DNA from: an uncultured Bacteroidota bacterium | Lineage (GTDB): Bacteria > Bacteroidota > Bacteroidia > UKL13-3 | Direction: 5' to 3' | Assembly: GCA_903883965.1 (NCBI GenBank) | Contig: CAISCU010000014.1 | Span: 1 to 64,000, forward strand | DNA length: 64,000 nucleotides | Shown here: positions 19,608 to 32,360 of the stretch, one piece after another | Layout: each line of letters begins with the position of its first letter | How positions within the stretch are numbered: position 1 is the first letter of the stretch | Program-made: the position numbers and the translations under genes | The notes under the pieces: generated by a model | Seen by the model: the letters and a program-made list of their open reading frames with translations, nothing else | What the model was told of the DNA's origin: nothing | The model's database searches: none

Positions 19608-21653
19608 TTAATTTCCTCCATCAAACAACAACACGTCATCTAACCTGTAAGAGGTACTTGAACCTGTTTGGGTAAAACGAATGTACAAGCAAGGGCATTG
19701 GTTAATATTACTCGTGCTGCTGGTAGTAAACCACTTGGCAGTGCCTGTTCCACTTGGTAATAAACTAAATGAAACTGGGGTATAATTGATGCCATTGCAA
19801 CTACTTTCAACGATAAAATCAGAGGCAGTTGAAGAAGTTGTTGACTTATACAAACCAAACTGCATTGTTGGTTTGTTCATGTTTGAGGTGTTTATTCCTG
19901 AAATGACAAAATTCTTACCTGGTGTATTTGTAAAAAACACATTGGCATTTCCAGAGGCATTCATGTAACCCAATGAAGGGCTTGTATTTCTAATATCGGC
20001 AGTACCTGAAAAACTCAACTGTGAACTGTTGAATTTTTGATTGGCAATGGCTGTTGTAGTTGATACCTTGCCCATGCTTTCGTAAAAAATAGATTTGTTG
20101 CTGCCACAATTACAGAGGTTCATCATAGAGGTGCTGGGTATGTTCCCATCTGTTTTGTAATTAATTTGAACCCCCGAATTGGTGAACGGAAAAATGCTAT
20201 AATAGTAAGCGGTATTGGTTTTTAAATTCAACAAGGTTTTGCTTTGGTAACCTGGTAAAACCACTACTGAATTTGAATCGTTTACTGCTGGCATACCATC
20301 TACAGGAAGCAAATTAGCCTGATTGGCTTGTTGTGAAATTTTAATCAAATAGCCATCGGGTAAAACACCTGTTGTAGGATCGGTCCATTCTAAATGAAAG
20401 TTGTTTAAATTGAGTGCTCTGCCCGTAAAACTGCTAGGGTAAGCACTTGGTTCAGACTTCACAAGCGAGTTGGTAATGGTATATTTGTACCAATTTGAAG
20501 TGGTACTGGCAGCATCATTGTCTATGGCCGTCACTTTAACATAAATATTTGAACTTACTTGAGCTGGAATTGGGTTGATGCTTTTGAAGGTATTGCCACT
20601 CACCCATTGCATTACAATATTGTTGTTGAGTTGAAGACTGTCTGTGCCCCATTGAACAATGGCATTTGTTACGGTGCCATCATCTGTAATGGTAGCAGAA
20701 ACTGAAACCGTGTCCAATTGTGTTGGACTGGAATTAGAAAAAGTAATGCCAGAAATAGTTGGAGGAACTGCGCATACACTCCCACCCCAAACCATGCACA
20801 CATATTCAGGATGGTCAACAAAAGGGTTTCGGTTGTGCTGTGGTGTTAAATAATAAATGGCATTATTGCGGTTCACTTCTTTTTGGCTTACGGGGTCGTT
20901 TTTGTGCCAAGTGAGCAACATGTTCAAAAACCAAGGTTTGAAATCGTAAGTGAGTGTATCAATGATGTTTTTGGCTTCAGTTGTTGGGTAATTTTTGGCC
21001 CATGTTCCTATATCGTCCATGTAGCGGGTTGCCATGTACAAATAAGCCCTGGCAAAATCACCTTTGTATTCGTTGATGGGTTCAAAAACAGTACCCGTAT
21101 AACCCGAAACCGAACAAGGCCCCACTTTACAACCATTGCTTGAAACCCATGTTGGGTTTGTAATTTGACCTAATGGGTAATTGCTCTTTTTGTTGTTTAC
21201 ATATTGGTCGGCAGGAAACAAATGGTGCAAATCGGAGTATTGCGGATTGGCAGCGTTGTCCAAACCACCCCACCAAGAATTGGGCATGCAATGTTCACGG
21301 GCATAACAATCGCCTTCGGCAGCAGCAGTGCCACATTGGTTGGTGTATATTTTAAAATAGTAATTGGGCGTACTTCCAGGTTTGTCAGAATACATGTCCC
21401 ACAAAAAAGAATCGAGCGGAGCGGGTCTTAAATCGGTATAAGCATAAGCATTCCAAACATCAAAAGCGGTACTGGTATAAGGCAACTTCACATGCCCTGT
21501 TTTAGCTATGTCTCTTAAACTTGCTTTTAAGGTATTGCCTGTTTTACCAATGGCATTGTTGTAAAAATTGCTCGGAATTTGTGCGATACTGGTCGAATAA
21601 ATCGTCAGTAAAAGGCCCAATATGAGTAACCTAAATTGAAAATGTTTAAACAT
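19608..21653 (-). CDS. Secreted endonuclease I family protein with additional extracellular domains
   Basis: YNNAIGKTG...DCYAREHCMPNSWWGG...YSDLHHLFPADQYVNNKKSNYPLG; signal peptide. Confidence 0.85.
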   Translation of the reverse strand: MFKHFQFRLLILGLLLTIYSTSIAQIPSNFYNNAIGKTGNTLKASLRDIAKTGHVKLPYTSTAFDVWNAYAYTDLRPAPLDSFLWDMYSDKPGSTPNYYFKIYTNQCGTAAAEGDCYAREHCMPNSWWGGLDNAANPQYSDLHHLFPADQYVNNKKSNYPLGQITNPTWVSSNGCKVGPCSVSGYTGTVFEPINEYKGDFARAYLYMATRYMDDIGTWAKNYPTTEAKNIIDTLTYDFKPWFLNMLLTWHKNDPVSQKEVNRNNAIYYLTPQHNRNPFVDHPEYVCMVWGGSVCAVPPTISGITFSNSSPTQLDTVSVSATITDDGTVTNAIVQWGTDSLQLNNNIVMQWVSGNTFKSINPIPAQVSSNIYVKVTAIDNDAASTTSNWYKYTITNSLVKSEPSAYPSSFTGRALNLNNFHLEWTDPTTGVLPDGYLIKISQQANQANLLPVDGMPAVNDSNSVVVLPGYQSKTLLNLKTNTAYYYSIFPFTNSGVQINYKTDGNIPSTSMMNLCNCGSNKSIFYESMGKVSTTTAIANQKFNSSQLSFSGTADIRNTSPSLGYMNASGNANVFFTNTPGKNFVISGINTSNMNKPTMQFGLYKSTTSSTASDFIVESSCNGINYTPVSFSLLPSGTGTAKWFTTSSTSNINQCPCLYIRFTQTGSSTSYRLDDVLLFDGGN

Positions 21654-22090
21654 AAAAAACGGTTTAGACACCTGCCTTGGGGCCTAAACAGGTGGTTTTC
21701 TTGCTAAAGAATTGCTATTTGGTAAAGAAATCACCCAATGTTAAAAGCAGTCAAGCCATACCAAAAGTGTAAGCACTTTTAAGCTAAATTGATTCCTTTA
21801 AACGATTGTTTGATTGGGTAGAAAGCTGTTTCTATAAAGGGTTGTTACTGGAACAGCTGATGTTTCTTTGGAAATACTAAGGTACTACTTTTATAGTAAT
21901 TTTAAATAATTATCAAAATTAATAATTAGTCCTTTTATATATGATTATAAATAGCATTGATCAGCCGTTTGACTTGTTAATGAAACAATATAATTGAGAA
22001 GTAAACATATAACTTGACTATTTCAACTATTTAGTAAAGTTATTTCTTGACTAATTAGTTTAACAGAGGACAGAATTAAAAACGCTAAAG

Positions 22091-22105
22091 TTACTTTCCG
22101 ATACA
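22091..22105. repeat. Distal att-like copy of the 15-bp direct repeat TTACTTTCCGATACA
   Basis: Exact copy of the mnmE 3' end (27039..27053). Confidence 0.75.
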
Positions 22106-22181
22106 TGAAACGATAAGAAACAAAAAACGCTGAAACCCTTGTAAAAAGTGAATTTCGAGAAGTATTTCGAGCAACAAGTGA

Positions 22182-22433
22182 AAAACCGAAATCAACAGCT
22201 TGAAAAATCCTATTGACGATTTTACTTCAAAAAGGTTAGACACTTAAGATATGATGCAAATGCTTCGTGTCAGTCACCGCACCATGGACAATTATATCAA
22301 AGCTGGGAAACTCACCCCTACTCGAATCAATAAACGCAATTACTTCGCGATTAATCAAGTTAAGGGATTGATGCGTATTCCTGAAGTTCCCAAACCCAGT
22401 TCCTTCCAGGAAATACATTTGACTAACATCTGA
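22182..22433 (+). pseudogene. Decayed HTH (MerR/excisionase-like) gene of the type found in Bacteroidota mobile elements
   Basis: In-frame reading ...KNPIDDFTSKRLDT*DMMQMLRVSHRTMDNYIKAGKLTPTRINKRNYF; in-frame TAA at 22245-22247 interrupts the HTH region. Confidence 0.6.
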
Positions 22434-22511
22434 TGAATAGGAAAGCAAAAGAGGAAAACAATTATTTTGTTCAAATGGCGGTTCAATTTTGTGAACTGAA
22501 CTAGCACTAAC

Positions 22512-23675
22512 TTACACCTCATCACGAACTGGCAAAAAGCCTTTGTCGCCTAGCTGTTTGATAATGCTCCTAATTAAATAACTATTATCAAATCTTAAAA
22601 CGTACTTGCGTGTACCCTCTTTCTCTGGGATTAACATTTTACGATCAATTAATTTTCTGATTTGTCGAGATACTTCCGCATCCGCTTTCCCTGAAAAAAA
22701 ATCTTTTATATCAGATGCTGAAATTACCTGCTTATCTACAACTCTTTTAAGAATTTTAGCCTCAACGTCTGTGATGAACTTTCTTTCTAGAGAATGATGG
22801 ATTGACGGAAGCAAAATCTCCTTGCGTAAGAAATCATAATCAGACAACTTATCAATCTTTTCAATCTCATCTTTTAGGCCTTTTAAAACATACTCAATCC
22901 ATGAAGTAAGACCTTCAACTGTACCTTTGTCGGCTTCAGACAAAAAGTTGTAATAGTCATTCCTATTGCTGCAAAACACCGCTGTTGGATTAATAATCCT
23001 ACCAACATTTACGTTGAAGCCAGCTTTAACAAGCATGGCGTATGTAAACAACCTTACGGTTCTACCATTTCCGTTTCCAAATGGGTGAATCCAAACAAAA
23101 CGATGATGTGCGATTGCTGTTTTAAGTAAATCATATTTGGGACTATCACCTTTATTTACAAATTCAAGTAATTCATTCATGTAATCTTCAACTGCTAACC
23201 ATTCAGGCGGCTTATGTGAAGATTTATTTATTTTTAAATTTACTTTTCTGTAATCCCCAGGAGTTGAATCACCTTCTCCATCTGGTGGTGGAAGTAAACC
23301 ATCAACTATCTTTTTATGCATCTCACTAAGAAAAGCCCTATTTATTGGATAGTCGCTAACGTTCTCTTCTATAAAAGCCATCGCTTTTTCAATATTCTGA
23401 ATTTCACGAATACTTGGAGTATCGACTTTGATGTCCGATAATTTTGTCTCTATGTATTCAGCAATTGTTGTGTTATTCCCTTCAATTCTTGCTGATCCGA
23501 TACTTTCTAAAGTATGAAAGATGTGTTTCAGTTGAAAAAACACTTTAGGGTGAGTTGAGCCACTTAACTGCTTCTTACGCAAGTGATCCAATTCGATGAT
23601 TAAATCAGTTAGAGCGGAATCGAAAGTCGGCTCTACCAATTTCAAATCATAATGTTTAAATACTGCTTCTGACAT
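22512..23675 (-). CDS. Fic family protein (putative AMPylase) with N-terminal inhibitory motif
   Basis: Fic motif HPFGNGNGR; SARIEGN fits the (S/T)xxxE(G/N) inhibitory helix; C-terminal winged-helix-like region. Confidence 0.92.
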   Translation of the reverse strand: MSEAVFKHYDLKLVEPTFDSALTDLIIELDHLRKKQLSGSTHPKVFFQLKHIFHTLESIGSARIEGNNTTIAEYIETKLSDIKVDTPSIREIQNIEKAMAFIEENVSDYPINRAFLSEMHKKIVDGLLPPPDGEGDSTPGDYRKVNLKINKSSHKPPEWLAVEDYMNELLEFVNKGDSPKYDLLKTAIAHHRFVWIHPFGNGNGRTVRLFTYAMLVKAGFNVNVGRIINPTAVFCSNRNDYYNFLSEADKGTVEGLTSWIEYVLKGLKDEIEKIDKLSDYDFLRKEILLPSIHHSLERKFITDVEAKILKRVVDKQVISASDIKDFFSGKADAEVSRQIRKLIDRKMLIPEKEGTRKYVLRFDNSYLIRSIIKQLGDKGFLPVRDEV

Positions 23676-23926
23676 TTGAAATATCTTTTTTGATGAATTA
23701 ACAGATTACATTTTAATGAATTAACACTATTAATTGATTATTCCTTATTTATCAATACTTTACAAGTATACGTCATTTTTCATTAATTTACATTTCCAGA
23801 TTGAAACATTTGCATTCTGCATGTTTAACAATTAAACATCAATGAATAATTATTTGTCAAATTTCCATCAAAACAGGTATAAAAATGAGCACTGTCTTAG
23901 CGAGATTTATCAATCACAAAACACGC

Positions 23927-24256
23927 CTATTCTTCAAGTATCCTTTTCTTAAACTTTGGCGCTCTCTTCTTAGTCAATATCCCCGCATCTTGAAGTTTCC
24001 TTCCTAAAATATCCTCTCCAGCAACCTTTAATAGGTCTTTTTCTAAACCTACAACAAATAGTACTTGCAGATAGCTGCCGATTGAAACGGTTGGACTTCC
24101 TTGCTCAATGTTGTAAATCGTTTTTCTACTTGTACCTGTCCTTTCCGACATTTGTTCTGAGCTTATTCTGCGGCGTAATCGCGCTAGTTTGATATTCTCT
24201 CCTAATTCTTTGAGAATTTTGAGATTCTTAGGCAATATAGCTGGTGCTGTTTTCAT
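23927..24256 (-). CDS. Xre-family HTH regulator (HipB-like)
   Basis: LGENIKLARLRRRISSEQMSERTGTSRKTIYNIEQGSPTVSIGSYLQVLFVVGL. Confidence 0.88.
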   Translation of the reverse strand: MKTAPAILPKNLKILKELGENIKLARLRRRISSEQMSERTGTSRKTIYNIEQGSPTVSIGSYLQVLFVVGLEKDLLKVAGEDILGRKLQDAGILTKKRAPKFKKRILEE

Positions 24257-24315
24257 TTAATGTGTTATATAAGTTACAAATATTGGATATTTTGAGTAAT
24301 TTATAACACATTAAA
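24256..24315. promoter_or_regulatory. 14-bp perfect inverted repeat TTTAATGTGTTATA-N32-TATAACACATTAAA at the xre start, probable autoregulatory operator
   Basis: Direct reading: 24256-24269 and 24302-24315 are exact reverse complements. Confidence 0.6.
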
Positions 24316-24504
24316 AAATTTATCTGGTTCAATAATTCATCCAAATGCATGAATTTTTCCAATTTTTTCATGCAATATGGATAGGATATTCTTATAAGCC
24401 AGGGACCTGATAACTTTCTGTTTTAGGAATGAAGCTAATACCATGGTAAAATACTCCTACAATTCAACAATAAAGGTAGCGCACTTCTGAGTTTGTTGAT
24501 CCAT

Positions 24505-26676
24505 TTAAATCAAAACCTTTCTAAAAATCCCAACTACCCTCAAGTTTTGGGTTTCTTCATTGCGAAGTACAATAGGCTCGTATGCCATTGTAGATTTTGG
24601 CAATAGTTGAATCTCCAAATGCTCAAATGATTCCTCAGAAATCACTTTCTTGCTGCGATACTCCTTCACCGTATAATTCGATCCAAAATCTGAATCTTTG
24701 AAATCCGTTAATTCCACCAGCGTTATTAACCCATTGCGCGATCCATGTTGGTATCGCTCAAACAAACAAATCGATCCATTGGGAATGATTTTATTCATGG
24801 ACTCCCCAACAACCTTACATGCAAAAAAATCGTTCTTATTCTTTAATTGCGATTCCAATTCAATAAACTGTAACGATTCAACCTTCTGAATTCCACTAAA
24901 TAACCCTGCCGCAATTTTTAAATCGTAAAAAGGAATTGTGAATGAATTCGGTTCATCCAATATCCGCAAAGAAACGGAATTATTAGCCGCCTCAAAAGTT
25001 CTAAAATAGCCTTTTAAATACTTGCGCATTCCTTGATTACAAGCATATATAAAAGTTCCTTTCATCCCCCTTAGCATAATGGTTCTGTAAATATTGATTA
25101 TAAAATTATGAAGAACGTCATAGTCTGTAATGGTATTTTTACCAGCCTTATCCTTATAATTTTCCTTTATCACAATTAATTTCTGCTTCTCAAAATCATA
25201 ATCAATCTCAGGCCCAATAATTACACCTGTATAATTCAAATCATAGCCCTGGGTAGTATGAATGCAGCCTACTTCATTAATCGCATTTGTAGAATTCACC
25301 CAATCAATCGCCAAACTATTCCATCGTAGTTTTACATCCTGAATCTCAATATCAAAAACTAATTTATCCTTCTTCGACTTCCATTCCCAAGCATATCCTG
25401 CCACCATTCTTGACAAACCATCCATTTTATCTTTCCTACCAATCGCTTCCACCATATCCTGAATATTATCATAAATTAAGCATTCATATTCGGGCGACTG
25501 ATATGTTGAACCAGAAGAAATTTTGCCACTAAAAACATCATTCAGCAAATTCACATATTCATTTCCACCTTTGCAACGGAACTGTGTTTTCAAAACTTCA
25601 ATTCTCGTATATTCACTATGCTCTAATGCATCAAATCTTTCACGCAACACATCTGATGGTTTCACACTTTGATTGCGGTCATAAAATAATAACAACTTAT
25701 TCGATTGTTTAATTAACCAATCTAACTCAGATGCTTTTGAATGATCAAAACCTAATTGAGCACATACCTCATCAAAAGGTTTAAAATAAGGACCCAAATT
25801 AACCCTTCTCCTCAATCGATGTGCCTCATCAACAATCACCAAATCATATTTTCTTTTCGCCAAATCCGACGGTCCGATTACCATATTCGGCGATAACCCT
25901 TGAATATTTTTAAAAACCCTAGAAATGGTTTTTCTAAACGATGCCATGGGGATGCACAAAGCCATTTCCAAGTCGCCATAATGCAATCTTACTTGTTTCA
26001 GCAAATCAAACAACTCCTCATCTTGCTCATCAAAATCAGCGAAATTAAAATCATCTAAGTTTGTTTTGAGCAATTTGAATAAAAATATCGCTAAAATAGA
26101 CTTTCCAGTACCAGCCCCTCCTTGTATCAAACTTACTTTATTACCTTTATCAAGCAGGCATTCCAAAATCAATTTCAAACTTGTAACTTGCTCAGCAGAC
26201 AGAGATTTGTAAGGCGAATATTTAAACAAATCAGAATTACTAATATGTTCCAATGAATGCCTAGCAATTCCCAAAGTCCTCAACTCACTCCATATATCTG
26301 CGAATAAGTTCCAATACTCCTGTTTCTGATAATAGCGATGGTTGGCAATTCCCAAATTGCCATTCTTCAATTGATATTGCCCATCAGCATTAATGTATCG
26401 TATTAAATTCGACTCAACGTCCAAAGTGGCCGATTTATTAAAAAGCTCACTGAGTATCAAGCTCACAGAGGAAAGTTCCTTTTTATTGATCGATTTAGAA
26501 TGAGCGCGCATTCTTTTTATGACATCGGTTGTTTCCCCTACATATGCGCTTTTATTTTTATTATTATTTAAAAAATAAACTAGCGGCCAAGAAACAAAAT
26601 CTCTATGATTTAAGATAATTTCCGACTCTAAATCGGTATCAAAATTATAATTAGAAATTGTAAACTGTTTGCCCAT
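24505..26676 (-). CDS. GIY-YIG nuclease-like / DUF2075 (Schlafen group 3-like) helicase / LexA-S24-like peptidase fusion
   Basis: N-term LVYFLNNNKNKSAYVGETTDVIKRMRAH...VESNLIRYI; Walker A QGGAGTGKSIL, VIVDEAHRLRR; C-term KIAAG...VVGESM...YTVKEY resembling the LexA/UmuD AG cleavage site and Ser-Lys dyad. Confidence 0.85.
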   Translation of the reverse strand: MGKQFTISNYNFDTDLESEIILNHRDFVSWPLVYFLNNNKNKSAYVGETTDVIKRMRAHSKSINKKELSSVSLILSELFNKSATLDVESNLIRYINADGQYQLKNGNLGIANHRYYQKQEYWNLFADIWSELRTLGIARHSLEHISNSDLFKYSPYKSLSAEQVTSLKLILECLLDKGNKVSLIQGGAGTGKSILAIFLFKLLKTNLDDFNFADFDEQDEELFDLLKQVRLHYGDLEMALCIPMASFRKTISRVFKNIQGLSPNMVIGPSDLAKRKYDLVIVDEAHRLRRRVNLGPYFKPFDEVCAQLGFDHSKASELDWLIKQSNKLLLFYDRNQSVKPSDVLRERFDALEHSEYTRIEVLKTQFRCKGGNEYVNLLNDVFSGKISSGSTYQSPEYECLIYDNIQDMVEAIGRKDKMDGLSRMVAGYAWEWKSKKDKLVFDIEIQDVKLRWNSLAIDWVNSTNAINEVGCIHTTQGYDLNYTGVIIGPEIDYDFEKQKLIVIKENYKDKAGKNTITDYDVLHNFIINIYRTIMLRGMKGTFIYACNQGMRKYLKGYFRTFEAANNSVSLRILDEPNSFTIPFYDLKIAAGLFSGIQKVESLQFIELESQLKNKNDFFACKVVGESMNKIIPNGSICLFERYQHGSRNGLITLVELTDFKDSDFGSNYTVKEYRSKKVISEESFEHLEIQLLPKSTMAYEPIVLRNEETQNLRVVGIFRKVLI

Positions 26677-27009
26677 CTACAAAGAATTGTATTTATCGGC
26701 TTTTCCTTTAGATTTTTCAACCGGATATTTAGCAGCATTTTTAGCAATCTTTGAATCAATAATCGTAGTAAAATCTAAATTATAATGATTCATGAGTAAA
26801 AGCGCATATGAAAATACATCGGCCAATTCTTCTTTAACTTTCTCTAGATTGGCATTATTAGGTGATTTCCATAAGTACAATTCCATCAATTCATTGGCTT
26901 CTATAGATAGTGCAATAGCCAAATCTTTAGGATTGTGAAATTGCTCCCAATCTCTTTCATTTCTGAATTGAATAAGCTTCTGAACGGTATCTTTTATATC
27001 CTCTGTCAT
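26677..27009 (-). CDS. MazG-like nucleotide pyrophosphohydrolase
   Basis: RDWEQFHNPKDLAIALSIEANELMELYLW...VKEELADVFSYALLL (MazG-type E-E-E-D metal-binding pattern). Confidence 0.9.
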   Translation of the reverse strand: MTEDIKDTVQKLIQFRNERDWEQFHNPKDLAIALSIEANELMELYLWKSPNNANLEKVKEELADVFSYALLLMNHYNLDFTTIIDSKIAKNAAKYPVEKSKGKADKYNSL

Positions 27010-27038
27010 TCATCAAATTTAATGAATTTGTATGAGTT

Positions 27039-27053
27039 TTACTTTCCGATACA
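27039..27053. repeat. Proximal copy of the 15-bp direct repeat, at the mnmE 3' end
   Basis: TTACTTTCCGATACA = reverse complement of TGT ATC GGA AAG TAA (C I G K stop). Confidence 0.75.
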
Positions 27054-28412
27054 AAACTTGCTAAAAATATTCCCCAGCAAGTCGTCTGTAGTAATTTCGC
27101 CAGTTATTTCACCTAAATGGTGCAGGGCTTTGCGAATATCAAAGGCCAAAAGCTCTCCACTCCTACCCATTTCCATTGATTGAATTACCGCTTGCAAGGC
27201 ATTGCGGGCATGTGTAAGGGCTTCAAAATGCCTGAGGTTGGTAACCAACACATCGTTCTTCACTTGCTCTTTGTTGACAATTTCTAACAGGGCTTTTTCT
27301 AAATGGGCTAAACCCAATTTTTCTTTGCTTGAAATAGCAACCAAACCCGGTATGCTTTCAAACAAAGGTGCATTGTTGAGCAAATCAATTTTATTGGCTA
27401 CAGGAACCACAACGGCTTGTAAATTGTTGAAGCTTTGCAATTCAGCTTGCAAGCTTTCTAAACTTGTAGAAGCGGCATCAAACACATACAATACAATGCT
27501 GGCTTGTTGAATGCGCTCCATGGTTTTTTCTATGCCCATGTTTTCAATGATATCGGCACTCCCCTCTCTAATACCTGCTGTATCAATTAAACGGAACAAA
27601 ACACCTTCAATGACAAAGCCTTCTTCAATGACATCACGGGTGGTTCCAGCAATGTCGCTCACCAAGGCTCTTTCGTCTTGCAACAAGGCATTGAGCAAGG
27701 TGCTTTTTCCGGCATTGGGCTTGCCTGCAATAACGGTGGGTATGCCGTTTTTAATGGCGTTGCCATAGGCAAACGAATCAATCAATACACTTAAATTGAC
27801 AATCAGTTGTTGAACCAATGCAGTTAAATCTTTGCGGCTGGCAAATTCTACATCTTCTTCTGAAAAATCCAATTCCAATTCAATCAAGGAGGCAAAATTC
27901 ACTAACTTTTCTCTGAGCACACTCAATTGTTTAGAAAAGCCGCCACGCATTTGCTGCAAGGCACTTTGGTGGGTTGCAGAACTTTGTGAGGCAATTAAAT
28001 CGGCTACGGCTTCGGCTTGGGTTAGGTCCATTTTGCCATTTAAAAATGAACGCAAGGTAAACTCTCCAGGCTGTGCCATTCTTGCGCCTTGTTTCACCAA
28101 AACTTCTAAAATGCGTTTTAAAATATAGGGAGAACCATGCCCGCTTAATTCAACAGTATGTTCTCCAGTATAGCTTTTAGGCCCAACAAAAACAGCTGCC
28201 AATACCTCATCTATCCATTCGGTTCCATCTAAAATTTTTCCAAAATGAAGGGTATGCCCTGCTACTTGGGTTAAATCTGCACCTTTGAAACAACTGTTGC
28301 AAATTTCCAAGGCTTTTGGACCACTGACTCTGATAACGCCTATGGCACCTACTCCCGAAGGGGTGGCCAATGCACAAATGGTTTCTCCTAATTGGGTTTT
28401 GGAATAATTCAT
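27039..28412 (-). CDS. mnmE: tRNA uridine-5-carboxymethylaminomethyl(34) synthesis GTPase MnmE
   Basis: ETICALATPSGVGAIGVIRVSG, GKPNAGKSTLLNALLQDERALVSDIAGTTRD, C-terminal NIFSKFCIGK; likely start is the internal ATG at 28412. Confidence 0.97.
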   Translation of the reverse strand: MNYSKTQLGETICALATPSGVGAIGVIRVSGPKALEICNSCFKGADLTQVAGHTLHFGKILDGTEWIDEVLAAVFVGPKSYTGEHTVELSGHGSPYILKRILEVLVKQGARMAQPGEFTLRSFLNGKMDLTQAEAVADLIASQSSATHQSALQQMRGGFSKQLSVLREKLVNFASLIELELDFSEEDVEFASRKDLTALVQQLIVNLSVLIDSFAYGNAIKNGIPTVIAGKPNAGKSTLLNALLQDERALVSDIAGTTRDVIEEGFVIEGVLFRLIDTAGIREGSADIIENMGIEKTMERIQQASIVLYVFDAASTSLESLQAELQSFNNLQAVVVPVANKIDLLNNAPLFESIPGLVAISSKEKLGLAHLEKALLEIVNKEQVKNDVLVTNLRHFEALTHARNALQAVIQSMEMGRSGELLAFDIRKALHHLGEITGEITTDDLLGNIFSKFCIGK

Positions 28413-28474
28413 TGGCACAAAAGTAATTGATTCTGCGCAGGACTCTGTTTCTTTGGGCATTAATTTTATAAATT

Positions 28475-29481: not shown

Positions 29482-29886
29482 ATGGAATTAAAACCATACC
29501 TCATTTTTCAGGGCAATGCTGAAGCTGCCATGAATTTTTATATAGCTTGTTTTCAGGCAGAAATTGTTGGCATTAACCGTTACGACAATGCCCCAATGGA
29601 AATACCAGAAAATTACACCAACAAAATCTTGCATGCCGAAATTAAAATAGGCAGCCAATCTATGTTATTCTGTGATATTTTACCCGACCGACCTTTTGTG
29701 CAAGGCAGCAATTTCTCTATGTCGGTAGACATTCCTCAAGTTATGGAAATGGATAAAGTTTTCAATCAATTGGCGGTAAACGGTAAGGTTGAAATGCCCT
29801 TACAAGATACTTTTTGGGGAGCCCGTTTTGGCATTTTAATTGACCAATTTGGCATTAGGTGGATGTTGAACTGCGATTTAAATTAA
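29482..29886 (+). CDS. VOC family (PhnB-like) protein
   Basis: YLIFQGNAEAAMNFY...ILHAEIKIGSQSMLFCD...DTFWGARFGILIDQFGIRWMLN. Confidence 0.85.
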   Translation: MELKPYLIFQGNAEAAMNFYIACFQAEIVGINRYDNAPMEIPENYTNKILHAEIKIGSQSMLFCDILPDRPFVQGSNFSMSVDIPQVMEMDKVFNQLAVNGKVEMPLQDTFWGARFGILIDQFGIRWMLNCDLN

Positions 29887-30859
29887 AAGTTTTATATACT
29901 GCTTTTAAACGCAAAAAGGTATTGTAACAATTGGGGGTTTGTTCACCTTTAACCCTGGCCATATACCTAATTTTACCTAGCAAAATACGCACAAAATGTT
30001 GTTCGTTTGCAATGGCCTTGTGTTGATTTTTGCGCGCGTAATTTTGCATAGCATGGGTTAATCCATTCGTTTCTGCATCATGCAAAATGGCGCGCAACAA
30101 ACGGTAATACCGCCTGTCTAAATTCATTTTTTGATTCACTTTAATACCCGTTACATACTTGGCCTGATGGGGCCCAGCCATTCTGTATTTTTTAGGGTTC
30201 ACCTCAAAGCCTTCTTTCCATAAGAGTTCCATCACCAATTGGTCAAAGAAAATTGGGAAAGGAGTATGGCTCGAAAAACTCAAATCATCGGCATAACGGG
30301 TATAAATAATTGAGGAATTTAAATGCGATTCCAACAGTTGTTGCATCCTAAAATCTAAATGCCTGCAAACAATATTCGACAACAACGGAGAACTGGGCGC
30401 ACCCATAGGCAAACGCCCATCAATTGTGCACAACAATGCAAATTGAACCGCCATTTCATAAGTAAAACCAAAGGGTTCCAATTGCAATGCTGACACTACT
30501 TTTTTGGTGCTGATGGCATGAAAAAAATCTTTGATATCTAAGTTCAACAAATATGCCTTTTTCAAATGGCTGGTGGCATTGCTAAGGTTATTCCTATTAG
30601 AAAAAAAGGGTCCATTTTTCACAAAACCATGTACCTGATCTGGAGCTTGATACAGTTTGTTCAAATAACTGACAATGGCCAATTGTACACTTTTTAAATC
30701 CGGCTCTGGCGACTCAATGGTTCTTTTGCCCCCACTTTTCTTTGGAATTTGAAATGTGGTATATTTAGGGTTAGACATGAGTTCCATACAACGCAATATG
30801 TCTATGCGGTATGCTTCGCAAAAACTATCTAAACTATTGTATTTAATTGGATTGTTCAT
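29855..30859 (-). CDS. Retron reverse transcriptase
   Basis: SNATSH (NAxxH), LNLDIKDFF, GRLPMGAPSSPLLSN, YTRYADDLSFS catalytic motif, YVTGIKVN (VTG). Confidence 0.92.
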   Translation of the reverse strand: MNNPIKYNSLDSFCEAYRIDILRCMELMSNPKYTTFQIPKKSGGKRTIESPEPDLKSVQLAIVSYLNKLYQAPDQVHGFVKNGPFFSNRNNLSNATSHLKKAYLLNLDIKDFFHAISTKKVVSALQLEPFGFTYEMAVQFALLCTIDGRLPMGAPSSPLLSNIVCRHLDFRMQQLLESHLNSSIIYTRYADDLSFSSHTPFPIFFDQLVMELLWKEGFEVNPKKYRMAGPHQAKYVTGIKVNQKMNLDRRYYRLLRAILHDAETNGLTHAMQNYARKNQHKAIANEQHFVRILLGKIRYMARVKGEQTPNCYNTFLRLKAVYKTFNLNRSSTST

Positions 30860-31019: not shown

Positions 31020-32360
31020 TTAAAGTTCTTTCAATCTGTTTACTGGAATGGTACTTTTAACTTGGCTTGATGTATTGAATCTGCCAAATACATCATATGA
31101 AATACGCACTGTTCCTGTTTGAAAACGGTTGTTTTTGGCCACCACCAATTCGGCTTGGTTCTGCGCGTTGGTACCATCTTCCCATTCGCACAAATGGTAA
31201 TAAGAAGGCCTGTATAAAAAAACCACTTGATCGGCCAATTCTTCTAACCAACCACTGTCTTTTAAATCTGATAAAATGGGCCTATTGGCATAACCTCTTT
31301 TTTCAGCATTTCTACTAATTTCAGAACCAATCAACAAACTAAAATTGTACAAAGTTGCCAGTCTTTTTAGTTCTTTGAGCACATTGCCTATGTATTTTTC
31401 TCGAGTGGTTGCCGTATTGAATTCAGGTTGTTGCAGGTATTGTATGCTATCTATGATAACCATATCTACTGGTGTCACAATCACTTGTTTTAAAATACTT
31501 GTCAGTAAATATTTTTCGTTACTTTCTAACAAATTGCAAAACTGAAACAAGCCCTCATTTTCTAATTGGTTGAGCTGTTCTATTTCTTTGTTCAATTCAG
31601 CTTCATTGGGTATTTCAAATTCAACATGATTTTCTAACGGAACTCCAAATAAATAGGCTTTTAAAAAACGTTGAGCGGTCATGCCATAGCTTAAAAACAA
31701 TACTTTTTTGCCTTGTTTAACGGTGATATCTTTGAACATAGACAACATCAATCTGGTTTTTCCCATTCCTGTTCTAGCGCCCAATACAGTCATTTGACCA
31801 GGTTCAAATCCTCCTCCTAACAATTGGTCCAATGCAGCAAAACCACTCGATAACAAATGGGTGTTTTTACGATGTACAATCTCATCTAATTGAGACAGCA
31901 ACAATCCAGAAAAAAACTGTGTAGATTGAACCGAATTGCGTTGTTTCAATTGAACCAATGAAAGCAAAGCCTGATCTATTTTTTCAGATAAACAGGATTT
32001 GGACGATGTCATTTGAGCAGCAATTTCGTTAAGCGTTCTAAGTTGATCGGCTTCAACAATCAAGGCAATACAATCTTCAACTTTAGAGGGTTCAATTTGG
32101 CATTGATTTAACCCATAAAACCACTCATTCCAAACAATTTCAGGATACTTTTCATAAACAGTTTGCTTAATTAATAAACTATCAAATGTTTGGTTCTGTT
32201 TAATTTTTTCAGCAATTGCACTAAAAATAAACCGATAAACCTGGGTTTGAATAAAGTGCTCATGTACTTGCAAAATACTCATCTGAAACACCTCTGGATA
32301 TTTCAATAAGCCTGCAATAAAATATTTCTCAAGTTCTTGAGTCTGAAACTGGGTAGTCAT
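31020..32360 (-). CDS. Divergent DnaB-like replicative helicase paralogue, candidate retron-associated gene
   Basis: SSGFAALDQLLGGGFEPGQMTVLGARTGMGKTRLML, DMVIIDSIQYLQ, RPILSDLKDSGWLEELADQVVFLYRP, AELVVAKNNRFQTGTVRISYD; N-terminal domain divergent. Confidence 0.87.
   Translation of the reverse strand: MTTQFQTQELEKYFIAGLLKYPEVFQMSILQVHEHFIQTQVYRFIFSAIAEKIKQNQTFDSLLIKQTVYEKYPEIVWNEWFYGLNQCQIEPSKVEDCIALIVEADQLRTLNEIAAQMTSSKSCLSEKIDQALLSLVQLKQRNSVQSTQFFSGLLLSQLDEIVHRKNTHLLSSGFAALDQLLGGGFEPGQMTVLGARTGMGKTRLMLSMFKDITVKQGKKVLFLSYGMTAQRFLKAYLFGVPLENHVEFEIPNEAELNKEIEQLNQLENEGLFQFCNLLESNEKYLLTSILKQVIVTPVDMVIIDSIQYLQQPEFNTATTREKYIGNVLKELKRLATLYNFSLLIGSEISRNAEKRGYANRPILSDLKDSGWLEELADQVVFLYRPSYYHLCEWEDGTNAQNQAELVVAKNNRFQTGTVRISYDVFGRFNTSSQVKSTIPVNRLKEL

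Follow-up and report, generated by a model that had tools for sequence, protein, structure and literature searches.

A conserved MazG and GIY-YIG nuclease-helicase gene pair as a candidate mobile restriction-type defence module

In the window, a 64,000-nt stretch of DNA from an uncultured Bacteroidota bacterium, a gene for a MazG-like pyrophosphohydrolase is followed by a gene for a protein that joins a nuclease, a helicase, and a LexA/UmuD-type S24 domain. The two genes constitute a real conserved two-gene unit. We consider, with a probability of about 0.5, that this pair is a mobile restriction-type defence module directed against DNA, in which the mark would likely be modified cytosine, the MazG-like enzyme would clean up modified dCTP, and the S24 domain would serve as a LexA-type fuse. 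By computation, we observed the gene pairing, the domain make-up, the intact active-site residues, the swapping of the nuclease, the sharing of the S24 module, and a parallel with pairs of NUDIX hydrolases and SauUSI-like enzymes.

Layout and conservation of the gene pair

Along the minus strand, a gap of 29 nt separates mnmE from the mazG-like gene, after which comes the gene of the 723-aa protein (Table 1). The mazG-like TAG occupies 26679-26677 and the helicase ATG 26676-26674, giving a spacer of zero, and the junction reads ...AATTCTTTG TAG ATG GGC... on the minus strand. The original prediction that the stop codon directly abuts the helicase start codon was thus borne out by the ORF coordinates and the minus-strand codons.

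Table 1 Features of the gene pair and its surroundings in the window.
Feature	Position	Strand	Basis or remark
Variable island	21672-27038		Flanked by the endonuclease I gene (19608-21671) and mnmE (27039-28460)
Nuclease-helicase-S24 gene, 723 aa	24505-26676	-	ORF call and Pfam domains
LexA/UmuD-type S24 autoprotease domain, aa 577-723	24508-24948	-	PF00717 Peptidase_S24, E=2e-6
SF1 helicase, Schlafen group 3 type, aa 180-546	25039-26139	-	SLFN-g3_helicase PF09848, E=1.4e-59
GIY-YIG nuclease core, aa 32-92	26401-26583	-	PF01541, E=2.5e-6
Abutting stop/start TAG ATG, candidate translational coupling	26674-26679	-	Read from sequence
mazG-like gene, 110 aa	26677-27009	-	ORF call; all-alpha NTP pyrophosphohydrolase, dCTPP1/RS21-C6 type

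Relatives were drawn from GTDB contigs and whole genomes. MazG was located immediately upstream of the helicase in 39 of the 41 distinct pairs, with a spacing of -119 to +18 nt; overlaps of 4 nt (10/41) and 14 nt (6/41) were the commonest. In the other two pairs, MazG was directly downstream in one, and a gene lay in between in the other. The pair was found in Bacteroidota, Actinomycetota, Bacillota, Verrucomicrobiota (Opitutae), Gemmatimonadota, and Uhrbacteria, as well as on a haloarchaeal plasmid, so this neighbourhood survey for co-occurring MazG showed that the pair is conserved beyond its own genome.

MazG of the window type is rare (27 of 395 Bacteroidota genomes). In the Bacteroidota sample, it accompanied all 11 GIY-YIG helicases inspected and six of the seven type C helicases, in which a putative PD-(D/E)XK domain takes the place of GIY-YIG, one of them with an intervening gene; altogether, 17 of the 18 inspected helicases of these two classes had MazG adjoining or in the same operon. 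Another PF09848 family has an E/D/E-K nuclease-like motif of its own; of its 20 members inspected, none had MazG alongside, and one had just 340 bp of upstream sequence (Fisher p ~4e-10 for MazG pairing, computed with 21 controls although 20 were inspected). Some distant Bacillota helicases were without MazG, and plasmid annotation is incomplete there. The members of this other family (L040-L059) are proteins of ca. 660 aa with an N-terminal E..IPRmG.R.D...EFK motif, which is PD-(D/E)XK-like; they are common in Bacteroidota and possibly represent a separate nuclease-helicase system.

Within the GIY-YIG class, MazG and helicase distances were correlated (r=0.83), whereas no such correlation was seen within type C (r=0.14), which fits partner exchange. 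Since the MazG tree intermixes GIY-YIG and type C partners and the type C distances are uncorrelated, MazG is the common part and the nuclease the exchanged one.

Several loci showed other arrangements. A three-gene form consists of MazG, a 363-aa protein without a Pfam match, and a type C helicase (L038:5821-9152). A GIY-YIG helicase gene without MazG was apparently frameshifted, with NUDIX and Vsr genes close by (L018:5956-9632), and another without MazG had a mobile-element protein gene before it and a macrodomain gene after it (L006:6007-8211). In a decayed pair, what follows MazG is a 231-aa remnant of the GIY-YIG helicase gene (L100:2578-3590).

Predicted enzymes, nuclease exchange, and the shared S24 module

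The MazG-like protein matched PF12643 (E=6.9e-15; 55.5 bits against a cut-off of 27), and its best sequence match in the PDB was dCTP pyrophosphatase 1 (dCTPP1/RS21-C6; E=1.6e-16), which is reported to hydrolyse dCTP and C5-modified dCTP (PMC7162842). E. coli Orf135 (a NUDIX enzyme), RS21-C6, and DCTPP1 have been described as 5-methyl-dCTP hydrolases (PMC10742078). The metal-binding E/E/E/D set of dCTPP1-type MazG is present as E37, E40, E61, and D64. These residues and W21, W47, and H25 did not vary among 41 homologues and are identical to E63, E66, E95, D98, W47, W73, and H51 of DCTPP1, in the same order. The invariance of every metal ligand and pocket residue means that catalysis by MazG is under selection.

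The 723-aa protein combines a nuclease and an NTPase motor, GIY-YIG and PF09848 (SLFN-g3_helicase, formerly DUF2075), with their motifs intact; SauUSI and McrBC likewise unite these two functions in a single protein or complex. The GIY-YIG residues Y34, Y45, G47, R55, H59, and E88 were invariant in a 26-sequence alignment, and both Walker A (GGAGTGKS, aa 186-193) and Walker B (VDEAH, aa 282-286) are intact, as are the scissile pair A590-G591, Ser626, and Lys671 of the S24 domain. In an AlphaFold2 model (mean pLDDT 80.5), the helicase part matched UvrD (Z=15.5), SLFN11 (Z=14.3), and SLFN14 (Z=14.0) with VIA-align, and Foldseek matches of the helicase were Dna2, Upf1, SLFN11/14, and RecD. Residues 577-723 of the model matched LexA 3k2z with Z=12.7 and 2.3 A over 119 residues. 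The Pfam domains and intact residues support the original prediction of a nuclease/helicase with a damage-sensing protease domain: the downstream protein joins a nuclease-helicase to a LexA-like, presumably self-cleaving domain. Pfam recognised no modified-base reader domain in it.

In type C helicases, GIY-YIG is replaced by an N-terminal domain of ca. 260 aa with invariant E69, D80, and E98-x-K100. The model of this N-terminus (pLDDT 81) had no significant Foldseek match in the PDB, and its VIA-align matches were mostly PD-(D/E)XK nucleases, namely Can2, Cdn1, Kpn2I, EndoMS, Cap4, and MspJI, with Z<=6.8. The modelled fold thus gives good but not conclusive support for a PD-(D/E)XK nuclease.

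A search of the 395 Bacteroidota genomes with the S24 region gave 18 hits, which were 10 GIY-YIG-SLFN helicases, five PLD-SF2 helicase-DUF3427 proteins, two HsdR, and one contig-end fragment; no stand-alone S24 protein of this subfamily was among them. Both S24-bearing HsdR type I subunits carry the domain at the C-terminus and adjoin HsdS (L168:5025-8570 and L169:3036-6584). In L168, AAA and HNH genes lie in between, in a Septu-like arrangement. S24 of the same kind also occurs on one Opitutae type C helicase. The Ala-Gly site, Ser, and Lys are kept across the S24 fusions wherever the segment is complete. The Actinomycetota members and the majority of type C helicases have no S24, so the switch is optional. 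The host genome encodes UmuD-like and UmuC-like proteins.

The DUF3427 proteins resemble SauUSI (PLDc-helicase-DUF3427), which cuts m5C and hm5C DNA (PMC3874153). A NUDIX hydrolase gene was directly upstream of six of the nine DUF3427 genes inspected in Bacteroidota and upstream of all five S24-bearing DUF3427 enzymes, two of which are near-identical. On an L. plantarum plasmid, the NUDIX, SauUSI-like, MazG, and GIY-YIG-Schlafen helicase genes are consecutive (L175:1249-6644). Genes for MrcB_N (McrB-N-type) and HNH adjoin the MazG-type C genes in Priestia and the GIY-SLFN gene in Paenibacillus. In four Bacteroidota loci, L103-L106, HNH genes lie next to MazG on its own, the match in L106 being weak. 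The HNH-motif genes beside MazG in these four loci (L103:7875-9965, L104:4232-5474, L105:5389-6619, and L106:8127-9451) encode proteins whose N-termini were judged EVE-like by eye; a HepT-like gene is also present in L103, and L105 has both a C5 methylase gene and one for a UvrD-PD-(D/E)XK protein.

Genomic site and mobility

The pair occupies a variable site. Genome G003, of the same genus, has a pair of MazG and a type C helicase between the same two flanking genes, in the place of the window's GIY-YIG pair; the flanking genes are 76-80% identical, and the interval contents are unrelated save for the relation of MazG and helicase. The helicase is sporadic, being matched in 10 of 58 relatives, several of them only via the type C class. 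Outside the genus, the matches closest to it include one in Chryseobacterium (62%), closer than those in same-family genomes (45-48%), which suggests on sequence grounds that the pair was horizontally transferred. Copies of the pair are present on plasmids and in phage records, four of which matched the helicase; an IMG/VR search by peptide patterns confirmed no relative. Stand-alone integration at an attachment site was considered and rejected, as the window contains no second copy of the 3' end of mnmE and no direct-repeat island boundary was found.

Known defence genes lie near some pairs, including a RADAR RdrB-like adenosine deaminase in two loci, Ppl, PDC-S14, and SoFic. Enrichment of defence genes around the pair relative to random regions was not demonstrated, the random control also containing CBASS and type I RM genes. 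In the window, a SoFic-like Fic gene (22512-24256, minus strand) comes after a HipB-like HTH gene, and the near-identical genome G001 has a 78%-identical HipB-like HTH gene followed by hipA instead of fic. A retron-type reverse transcriptase gene (29855-30859, minus strand) lies near mnmE, beside a DnaB-like gene (31020-32360); it is 74% identical and syntenic in G003 and was thus apparently inherited vertically.

Proposed mechanism, alternatives, and known systems

For the substrates of the nuclease and the hydrolase, the direction of the S24 switch, and the anti-phage activity, we infer the following. The pair probably restricts foreign DNA; this defence reading is supported by its occurrence in several phyla and on plasmids and phages, by the S24 domain that it shares with other restriction-type enzymes, and by the parallel with NUDIX and SauUSI-like enzymes. 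The GIY-YIG nuclease would cut incoming DNA, and the SF1 helicase/translocase would supply ATP-driven tracking. As in type IV restriction, the discriminating mark recognised by the nuclease-helicase may well be a modified cytosine. No cognate methyltransferase was found by eye among the ORFs around the pair, and none of the proteins of the host genome (G000) was a C5-cytosine methylase at E<=1e-10. Of 24 genomes with the pair, 10 had C5-cytosine methylases, against 15 of 24 genomes without it (p=0.25). This comparison, made to see whether carriers avoid such methylases, lends no support to a general 5mC target, so recognition of hmC or of a specific context is as likely.

MazG may protect the host by sanitising modified dCTP, a role suggested by analogy with dCTPP1. 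Its substrates would be modified forms of dCTP, 5-methyl- or 5-hydroxymethyl-dCTP for example, released in part from degraded phage DNA, and their hydrolysis would keep such bases out of the chromosome, so that the chromosome is not marked as a target. On RecA filaments, the S24 domain would undergo self-cleavage after Ala590, with loss of the last 133 residues. It is rather likely that this RecA-linked cleavage at A590 alters nuclease-helicase activity. Cleavage would be either an off-switch sparing a damaged chromosome, that is, a built-in restriction alleviation, or an on-switch; the HsdR fusions favour shut-off, by analogy with restriction alleviation.

To our knowledge, how modification-dependent nucleases spare the host when phage-derived modified nucleotides re-enter the pool has hardly been studied. 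If our reading is true, a paired modified-dCTP hydrolase would be a direct answer to the self-cutting problem of these nucleases, and restriction enzymes with a self-cleaving S24 domain would have an in-built switch for alleviation (or activation) of restriction. The new point is the LexA-type switch common to four nuclease architectures, for whose function we offer a hypothesis. Tentatively, a LexA-type self-cleaving module on at least four unrelated restriction nuclease-helicases (GIY-YIG/SF1, PD-(D/E)XK/SF1, SauUSI-like PLD/SF2, and HsdR) may make restriction depend on the condition of the host chromosome, and in the cases other than HsdR a dedicated modified-dCTP hydrolase (MazG or NUDIX) may clear the target base from the cell's own DNA. 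This would be an undescribed general design, in which autoimmunity is controlled via the nucleotide pool.

The original prediction had suggested a two-gene defence module combining nucleotide depletion with DNA/RNA attack. In such a system, MazG on infection would destroy dCTP or dNTPs broadly and starve phage replication, while the nuclease-helicase attacks DNA. The first part of the prediction stands: the unit is conserved, and both its occurrence across genomes and its surroundings are in keeping with mobile defence. Depletion as stated was not supported and is unlikely. Defence systems based on dCTP deaminase and dGTPase are precedents for it, and the catalytic residues of MazG are intact. 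dCTPP1 hydrolyses plain dCTP besides C5-modified dCTP (PMC7162842). However, MazG is small and has no visible sensor, inhibitor, or depletion trigger, and it is the exchangeable common part. The resemblance of the enzyme to dCTPP1, the restriction-type nuclease-helicases that are its partners, and the NUDIX hydrolases that take the same position beside SauUSI-like enzymes point to pool sanitising.

The same observations bear on two explanations without restriction. A DNA repair or house-cleaning operon, in which MazG sanitises damaged nucleotides and the nuclease-helicase performs repair under SOS control by S24, would accommodate the repair members of the MazG and GIY-YIG (UvrC) families and the LexA/UmuD fold of S24, but is improbable given the sporadic distribution (helicase in 10/58 relatives, MazG in 27/395 genomes), the plasmid and phage copies, the variable chromosomal site, and the presence of the same S24 on HsdR and SauUSI-like restriction enzymes. 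It is likewise improbable that the genes form a toxin-antitoxin-like pair, with a toxic nuclease-helicase neutralised by direct binding of MazG rather than by nucleotide hydrolysis. Although a small upstream gene that touches or overlaps its neighbour and co-varies with it within the GIY-YIG class would suit such a pair, the invariance of all metal ligands and pocket residues indicates selection for catalysis; moreover, MazG relatives swap between unrelated nucleases, and NUDIX takes the same place elsewhere.

The restriction-type module with pool cleaning that we favour appears, judged from sequence, to be a form of defence fitting no PADLOC model. In PADLOC-DB 2.0.0, MazG had no match, and the helicase had only partial weak matches, the best being to PDC-S14 over the GIY region (E=5.6e-9). 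DefensePredictor names MazG only as a predicted defence domain, and open-access full text yielded no paper combining MazG with DUF2075, DUF2075 with GIY-YIG, or DUF2075 with defense.

Among known systems, CMoRE is a GIY-YIG restriction enzyme for 5hmC/5ghmC DNA with a GIYxY motif and a C-terminal sensor (PMC12923530). It resembles the window protein in using a GIY-YIG nuclease in anti-phage restriction, but the CMoRE paper mentions no helicase (PMC12923530), whereas the window protein has a helicase and S24; the third Tyr of the CMoRE GIYxY-YIG motif (PMC12923530) is absent from the window protein, which reads LVYFL...AYVGET. With LexA/UmuD autoproteases, the window domain shares the fold, the Ala-Gly site, Ser, and Lys, but it is fused C-terminally to a nuclease-helicase and is neither a repressor nor a polymerase subunit. 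The likeness to human Schlafen group 3 proteins (SLFN11 and SLFN14) lies in the helicase fold and is limited to that part, the N-terminus in the window being GIY-YIG. Window MazG is close in sequence to dCTPP1/RS21-C6 and keeps every acidic ligand and aromatic pocket residue, but its gene belongs to a two-gene mobile module, and its substrate is predicted from likeness. Two Bacteroidota type I HsdR carry the same S24 module at the C-terminus, whereas no HsdS or HsdM adjoins the window pair. By Pfam, the window protein does not have the SauUSI-family set of PLDc nuclease, SF2 helicase, and DUF3427; it differs from SauUSI in having GIY-YIG and an SF1 Schlafen-type helicase without PLDc or DUF3427, and a MazG rather than a NUDIX partner. 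Nevertheless, SauUSI likewise unites a nuclease and an ATP-dependent helicase in a single chain, and the Bacteroidota SauUSI-like enzymes, like the window protein, carry S24 of this subfamily and have a nucleotide hydrolase gene directly upstream.
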